Below are positions 21,710-23,275 of a stretch of 64,000 bases of DNA, piece by piece. The translations under genes were made by a program, and so were the position numbers. Each line of letters begins with the position of its first letter. Positions within the stretch are counted from its first letter, which is position 1. The DNA lies in contig QHWT01000064.1 of the NCBI GenBank assembly GCA_003222675.1, positions 87,912 to 151,911 on the forward strand, given 5' to 3'. The notes under the pieces are model-generated. The model made no database searches. It was given only the letters and a program-made list of their open reading frames with translations, and had not been told where the DNA came from. The DNA is from Acidobacteriota bacterium (GTDB taxonomy: Bacteria > Acidobacteriota > Vicinamibacteria > Vicinamibacterales > 2-12-FULL-66-21).

Positions 21710-21943
21710 GTGCGTCGATCGTTCTCTCGAATAGCCGTGCTCCCCTGCCTTGTCCTGTGCGTGTTCGATGCGGGGAAATCCGAGACCGTGTTCCTGAAGG
21801 AGCCGCTGCCGGTGCTGATCGTCTATTGGACCATCAGCGTTGGCGCCAGCGGCGACGTCCGCTTCGCCCGCGACGTCTACGGGCGGGACGCCGCCGTGAT
21901 GCGTGCGCTCGGCGCCGCGCCCGTTCCCTCGGTTATCCGGTGA
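21710..21943 (+). pseudogene. L,D-transpeptidase (YcbB-like) C-terminal remnant
   Basis: From a GTG at 21710 the frame gives a signal-like stretch (RRSFSRIAVLPCLVLCVF) and then ETVFLKEPLPVLIVYWTISV...DVYGRDAAVMRAL, which fits the last about 50 residues of YcbB-type murein L,D-transpeptidases. The catalytic SHGC region is absent. A TACAAT box (21698-21703) lies 6 nt before the GTG, so a short chimeric protein could still be made. An ATG at 21677 is an alternative start. The end overlaps pnuC (GTGA). Confidence 0.5.
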
Positions 21944-22491
21944 CGCTCGAGATCATCGCCGTCGCCTGCGGCCTGGCCAACGTGTACCTCACGGTGCGAC
22001 AGAACATCTGGTGCTGGCCGGTGGGTGTCGTGATGGTGTCGCTGTATATCTACATCTTCTTTGAAGCGAAGCTGTACTCCGACACGCTGCTCAACGTGTT
22101 CTTCCTCGTCATGCAGTTCTACGGCTGGTATCAGTGGACGCGGGGTCCCGTCGAGCACTCGCGCTCGCTTTCGGCGATCCGCCGTCTGGCGACGCGCGGA
22201 TGGACCTGGACGATCCTCGGCGTCTCTGTCGGCACCACCATCGTCGGCACGGCGATGCACCGCTACACCGATGCCGCGCTTCCCTATCCTGACGCGTTCA
22301 CGACGCTCCTGAGCGTGTTCGCGCAGTTCCTGATGACGAAGAAGTTCCTCCAGAACTGGGTTCTCTGGATCATTGCGGATGTCGTTTACATCGGGGTCTA
22401 CGCCATCAAGGATCTCTACTGGACGTGCGGCCTCTACGTGGTGTTTCTCATTCTGTGCGTGCAGGGATACCGGGAATGGAGCCGCGGATAA
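21940..22491 (+). CDS. pnuC: Nicotinamide riboside transporter PnuC
   Basis: A 183-residue protein with about seven membrane helices. The N-terminal TLEIIAVACGLANVYLTVRQNIWCWPVG and the QFYGWYQW motif are diagnostic for PnuC; a second aromatic cluster (LQNWVLWIIADVVYIGVY) lines the substrate path. It allows entry of nicotinamide riboside, trapped later by phosphorylation (no NadR in the window). The GTG start overlaps the stop of the transpeptidase remnant. Confidence 0.92.
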   Translation: MTLEIIAVACGLANVYLTVRQNIWCWPVGVVMVSLYIYIFFEAKLYSDTLLNVFFLVMQFYGWYQWTRGPVEHSRSLSAIRRLATRGWTWTILGVSVGTTIVGTAMHRYTDAALPYPDAFTTLLSVFAQFLMTKKFLQNWVLWIIADVVYIGVYAIKDLYWTCGLYVVFLILCVQGYREWSRG

Positions 22492-22542
22492 CGGCCGCGT
22501 ATGATGACGCCAACGATGAGCATCCGCACCTGGAGGTCGATG

Positions 22543-22821
22543 ATGGCTCGCATTGCTGTTCGCTACTGCGCGTATTGAATCTCCGGGTTGCACGCCGTCC
22601 GTGTGGCGGCGCGGCTTCGGCGCGAGTTGCAGTCGGAGGTCGAGATGGAGCACGGGCGCTACGGCGAGTTCAAGGTGTTCGTCGACGGCGAGATCGTCGC
22701 TGACGGGGGCGCCATGGCCGCGCTGGGCGTGCTCCCATCAGGGCGAAAGGTGGTCGAGGCTGTGCGCGCAAGGATCGCCAGCAGCCGTGGCAGGCCGCCC
22801 GACCAATCCGGCGCAAGTTGA
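22543..22821 (+). CDS. selW: Selenoprotein W-like (Rdx family) with in-frame Sec TGA
   Basis: From ATG 22543 (GGAGG at 22532-22536, 6-nt spacing) the frame reads MARIAVRYCAY, then TGA at 22576-22578, then continues openly for 80 codons with GEFKVFVDGEIV and LGVLPSGRKVVEAV. This is the complete 92-residue Rdx/SelW pattern, with the TGA exactly at the U of its CxxU redox motif (Cys9, Sec12). A hairpin starts 9 nt after the TGA (see 22587-22607). Read conventionally the gene appears truncated or absent. A nonsense mutation of an ancestral Cys codon is the alternative, given nearby gene remnants. No selA/selB is in the window. Confidence 0.7.
22587..22607 (+). promoter_or_regulatory. Candidate bacterial SECIS hairpin
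   Basis: GTTGCACG (22587-22594) can pair with CGTGTGGC (22600-22607), eight base pairs including three or so G-U pairs, closing a 5-nt loop CCGTC. The loop begins 17 nt after the TGA, within the range for bacterial SECIS elements, and contains a G followed by U. It is hand-folded, not computed. Confidence 0.5.
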
Positions 22822-22852: not shown

Positions 22853-23275
22853 ATGACCTGGCGCTCGCGGCGCATCAACGTCAACACTGAGGACGGCGAG
22901 CTGACGCTGCTGAGGGCTCCAGCCGCCGTTGCAATCAGCGCCTTCGTCCTGGGGCTGACGGTCGGCGAGCTGGCGAAAGCGGTGGCCGGCGAACCCTTCG
23001 CGTCCGCGCAGTATTGGCTCGCCATCGCTGTCTGCGCGCCGTTCCTGCTCTCCTCGCGCTGGTTCGGATCGGGGTGGAGCGGTCTCATGCTGCGCGGCTG
23101 GATACTCGTCGCAGCCGCCGCGGGAACGTTGCGAATCATTTACTTCTGCGCGATGTCCTACTCACGCCGGCCGCTCGGGATCTGGATCGTGATCGTCCTG
23201 CTGGATACGGCCGTTGCGGGAGCGTTGTGGCTCGCCATATACGCGCTGTTCAGGAGAATCCGCACGGGGACCTAA
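22853..23275 (+). CDS. Hypothetical membrane protein
   Basis: A 140-residue protein with four predicted membrane helices (AAVAISAFVLGLTVG; YWLAIAVCAPFLL; GWILVAAAAGTL; GIWIVIVLLDTAVAG) and basic loops. No known family is recognised. It starts 31 nt after the SelW-like gene on the same strand, so it may be co-transcribed with it. The start ATG 22853 has only a weak ribosome site; the frame extends further upstream through the SelW gene but that part is not credible. Confidence 0.6.
   Translation: MTWRSRRINVNTEDGELTLLRAPAAVAISAFVLGLTVGELAKAVAGEPFASAQYWLAIAVCAPFLLSSRWFGSGWSGLMLRGWILVAAAAGTLRIIYFCAMSYSRRPLGIWIVIVLLDTAVAGALWLAIYALFRRIRTGT

Follow-up and report, generated by a model that had tools for sequence, protein, structure and literature searches.

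A SelW-like selenoprotein gene with a conserved in-frame UGA and a bacterial SECIS in an Acidobacteriota genome

Bacterial SelW-like selenoproteins with a CxxU motif have been known since 2005-2006 (PMC1088965, PMC1794560). In the Sargasso Sea set they are the most abundant selenoprotein family (PMC1088965), and they are listed both in a bacterial survey (PMC1794560) and in a current review (PMC13188914). Thirty-five SelW-like genes are counted in one survey (PMC5029168). That SelW genes are missed by annotation has already been noted for the Epsilonproteobacteria (PMC4607533). The published model of the bacterial SECIS (bSECIS) has a loop of 3-9 nt with a G (then G/U) at loop position 1-2, and the loop lies 16-37 nt from the UGA (PMC13188914).

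The bacterial SelW-like selenoproteins (PF10262) agree with the gene described here in size, in the thioredoxin-like fold, in a CxxU motif with selenocysteine (Sec) at the second position, and in a TGA followed by a bSECIS with a G in the apical loop. The eukaryotic SECIS, in contrast, is found in the 3' UTR and not in the coding region. The usual bacterial type reads CxxUNYxPRA, whereas the present gene belongs to a subclade with CA(Y/F)U(I/V)SGLHAVRVAA. The subclade also differs from the usual type in a DGGAxAxLGVLPSGR segment near the C-terminus, and it does not reach the cut-offs of the strict NCBI SelW models.

Here we describe this gene in a window of 64,000 nucleotides (the whole stretch of DNA that was analysed) from an Acidobacteriota genome. 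It is almost certainly a genuine bacterial SelW-like (Rdx) selenoprotein gene, in which Sec would be placed at codon 12 by SelB and the product most likely is a CxxU oxidoreductase. The coordinates of the gene and of its neighbours are collected in the table.

Table. Positions of the selenoprotein gene, its signals and the adjacent frames in the window
Feature	Position	Strand	Basis
selW-like (Rdx family) selenoprotein gene, 92 aa, CxxU	22543..22821	+	Pfam Rdx, same-frame relatives, SelW fold
Sec codon UGA, codon 12, CAYU	22576..22578	+	TGA in 47/47 motif genes; Cys in four distant relatives
bSECIS apical stem-loop, 7 pairs, loop CGUGU	22593..22611	+	folding, covariation, synonymous reshuffles
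Shine-Dalgarno GGAGG, 6 nt before the ATG at 22543	22532..22536	+	sequence
pnuC-type nicotinamide transporter, upstream neighbour	21940..22491	+	Pfam NMN_transporter, 173.5 bits over 22009-22491
open frame, 140 aa, without Pfam match, outside the system	22853..23275	+	frame listing and Pfam scan

The frame had been proposed in an earlier note made from the sequence, and on re-reading its coordinates, the placement of the TGA at the CxxU site and the Shine-Dalgarno upstream of the ATG all hold. The frame is interrupted once and closes with a second TGA at 22819-22821, so that the 92 residues include the Sec; another in-frame ATG is found at 22540. The read-through product begins MARIAVRYCAYUISGLHAVRVAARLRRELQSEVEMEHGRYGEFKVFVDGEIVADGG. 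Close relatives end after about 80 residues, and the C-terminal tail of the window protein (22783-22818) is about 12 residues longer. The gap to the upstream pnuC-type gene is 51 bp, and from this arrangement the two genes are possibly co-transcribed. A search of the window for a second selenoprotein (UGA, redox motif and hairpin) returned eight other frames, none of them gene-like. Ordinary gene callers would miss the selW-like gene, and it is probably unannotated at present.

The read-through product aligns with the SelW/Rdx family and has its TGA at the redox site, and the family fit seen by the earlier note is borne out by profile and by fold. With Pfam Rdx (PF10262) it reaches 26.0 bits, over a cut-off of 22.6. 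It stays below the cut-offs of TIGR02174 (15.1 bits, cut-off 34.2) and NF041051 (30.5 bits, cut-off 88), and is therefore filed in the wider Rdx family and not in these narrow NCBI SelT/SelW/SelH subfamilies. A PF10262 profile search of the gene's own genome gave no match and so missed the selW-like gene, whose score is presumably reduced by the stop codon; protein and alignment queries recovered it.

An AlphaFold2 model (pLDDT 82, built from only four aligned sequences with Sec entered as Cys) has a thioredoxin-like fold and places CAYU at residues 9-12, between a strand (4-8) and a helix (13-29). Among solved structures the best Foldseek matches to the model are 2oka, 3dex, 2fa8, 2obk and 2p0g, followed by mouse SelW (2npb) and then by thioredoxins. 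The first five, all bacterial Rdx proteins, share the fold (E ~1e-5, TM ~0.65-0.7) at 21-30% identity to the window protein, and their depositors label them as SelW-related or putative Se-binding. Mouse SelW, which carries the CxxU motif as the window protein does, also shares the family fold but is a weaker structural match (TM ~0.54). Polyubiquitin, returned by phmmer against the PDB, was rejected as an artefact, because weak repeat matches had been summed and no single stretch passes.

Searches of the order and the phylum for relatives yielded 47 distinct SelW-type genes that have the motif, counting that of the window. The second redox position is TGA in every one of them (47/47) and TGT or TGC in none. 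Four more distant homologues without a stop have Cys at the equivalent position (YCTQC), and this is the expected Sec/Cys pairing. These four (L090, L091, L092 and L093) are distant Rdx proteins of the same order that read YCTQCRW; at least one genome bearing a Cys-type Rdx protein (G046) also has selB.

An ordinary Rdx gene hit by a chance nonsense mutation at its redox codon would equally show a single in-frame stop, and the patchy presence of the gene in the family could be read in the same way. The earlier note had allowed for such decay because remnants lie nearby. The relatives, however, are intact. Within the close clade, whose five genes are 70-86% identical, the sequence after the TGA has dN of 0.10-0.22 against dS of 0.72-1.75, with dN/dS of 0.10-0.22, and the changes fall mostly at third positions. 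The low dN relative to dS is evidence of purifying selection downstream of the TGA, and decay is rejected. With the same TGA in all of the motif genes, a bSECIS kept beyond the needs of the protein and a complete Sec machinery in the genome, the pseudogene reading is the least credible of the alternatives, with a probability close to nil.

The UGA might instead be read as another residue, by tryptophan insertion or near-cognate suppression, or might be a stop under regulation, with a short peptide as the product. Non-Sec read-through of UGA does exist in bacteria. Against this, UGA is also the ordinary terminal stop of the window gene and of its relatives, the internal UGA falls where distant relatives have the Cys of YCTQC, a SECIS follows it, and a tRNA-Sec is encoded in the genome. 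We consider such a decoding very improbable and retain Sec as the residue at codon 12.

The hairpin was described in the earlier note as an 8-bp stem beginning 9 nt after the TGA. The hairpin is real and its loop contains GU as described, but the stem has 7 bp (22593-22599 paired with 22605-22611) and begins 15 nt after the TGA. Suboptimal folds of the window sequence allow a lower stem extension from ~7-8 nt after the TGA, which may be what had been seen. The second base of the loop is an invariant G, followed by U/G. Scored with hand-written rules in place of bSECISearch, the element satisfies the published model: the loop is 5 nt long, has G at position 2 and then U, and starts 22 nt after the UGA. 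An Rfam scan of the window gave no match, and at the gathering score no Rfam family includes this SECIS.

Taken from the window alone, the hairpin could be a by-product of the GC-rich codons that specify the conserved VAA/RVAA helix. Under a loose bSECIS rule a stem of at least 7 bp follows 76 of the 1617 TGAs in the window (~5%), and 4% of synonymous reshuffles of the window sequence reach 7 pairs together with the loop rule. For this sequence, moreover, the minimum-energy fold is a different one, ~0.1 kcal/mol more stable than the bSECIS fold. Because bSECIS-like hairpins are common in GC-rich DNA, the hairpin of the window by itself was discounted and only comparative evidence was counted.

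In an alignment of 18 genes pairing amounts to 95%, the covariation score is reached by 0 of 500 shuffles, and every slid version of the stem scores lower. Compensatory two-sided changes occur in these genes at two pairs, 15-33 and 21-27. In 41 genes an average of 6.51 of the 7 pairs is observed, as opposed to 4.82 (sd 0.14) in 2000 reshuffles that keep the protein, and the loop is GU or GG in 41/41 genes, as opposed to a maximum of 19 among the same reshuffles. As an approximation, the codon usage of this window stood in for that of every genome in these comparisons, and the genes share ancestry; the figures are therefore not a strict probability. Pairing and loop both lie beyond the synonymous reshuffles, all 2000 of them, so that the nucleotides are constrained beyond what the protein needs. 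A hairpin produced by codon choice is accordingly given hardly any weight, and the element is taken as a bSECIS, supported by covariation as well as by the constraint on synonymous sites. In four distant SelW-type genes (L012, L020, L076 and L088) the hairpin is off the register of the other 41, apparently a few nucleotides farther from the UGA.

The host assembly (7.16 Mb, 99.9% complete, 3.9% contamination) encodes the full set of factors for Sec, and the absence of selB and selC, which would have spoken against the gene, is not found. All four genes are present: selA (539 bits), selB (335 bits, full-length, 638 aa), selC, a tRNA-Sec with the anticodon UCA (tca) (61.4 bits), and selD (344 bits). 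The SelB protein is 76% identical to that of a same-genus genome, and the machinery is therefore most likely native to the lineage rather than a contaminant. SelD has its own in-frame TGA at a CAGU motif in MKKLTDFAACAGUASK (L040, G000:C36:78330-79259), which makes it a second, independent selenoprotein candidate in the same genome.

Sequence evidence establishes the gene with its conserved UGA, the SECIS and the Sec machinery. In the proposed mechanism, SelB with Sec-tRNA-Sec would recognise the hairpin, which spans nt 15-33 downstream of the UGA, and Sec would be inserted at codon 12. The resulting protein would be thioredoxin-like, and strand 1 and helix 1 would flank its redox centre, Cys9-x-x-Sec12. 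Judging by motif and fold, its role is most likely that of a small thiol/selenol oxidoreductase. We infer the insertion of Sec in the cell, along with a redox partner and a substrate.

The gene has a scattered distribution. A SelW-type match occurs in 45 of 162 genomes of the order. Within the window's own family the gene is found only in this genome and in one other (G003), and a same-genus genome (88% complete) is without it. In the tree the subclade of the window gene is split from the usual CxxUNYxPRA type with support of 100/99. Further members of this distinct subclade (L005, L006, L007, L008, L010, L071 and L073, most with CA(Y/F)U(I/V)S) are patchy over acidobacterial families; L005 comes from the closest relative that has a name, an Acidobacteria gp6 metagenome-assembled genome, which gives the phylum of the host. 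The copy in G380, a genome of a different family, has 82% identity to the window gene but 74% to the copy in G277, which belongs to the same family as G380, and the gene neighbours differ among the subclade loci compared. Together with the patchiness these observations hint at horizontal transfer of the subclade, a question that proteins of 80 residues cannot settle. A speculative reading, which we think rather unlikely, makes the CA(Y/F)U(I/V)SGLHAVRVAA subclade an undescribed selenoprotein subfamily in its own right, with a function unlike that of ordinary SelW and spread horizontally among acidobacterial lineages.

SelW selenoproteins are already on record for bacteria, and the window gene is a new member of that family. 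With it the Acidobacteriota, to which selenoprotein surveys have given little coverage, gain one firmly supported case; in the literature searched, one paper names this phylum together with SelW. Its relatives, dozens of SelW genes that share a conserved SECIS, are a possible training set for selenoprotein finders. With selB above the cut-off in 50 of the 60 relatives searched, and with SelW-type genes distributed through the order as given above, the use of selenocysteine looks common in this lineage.
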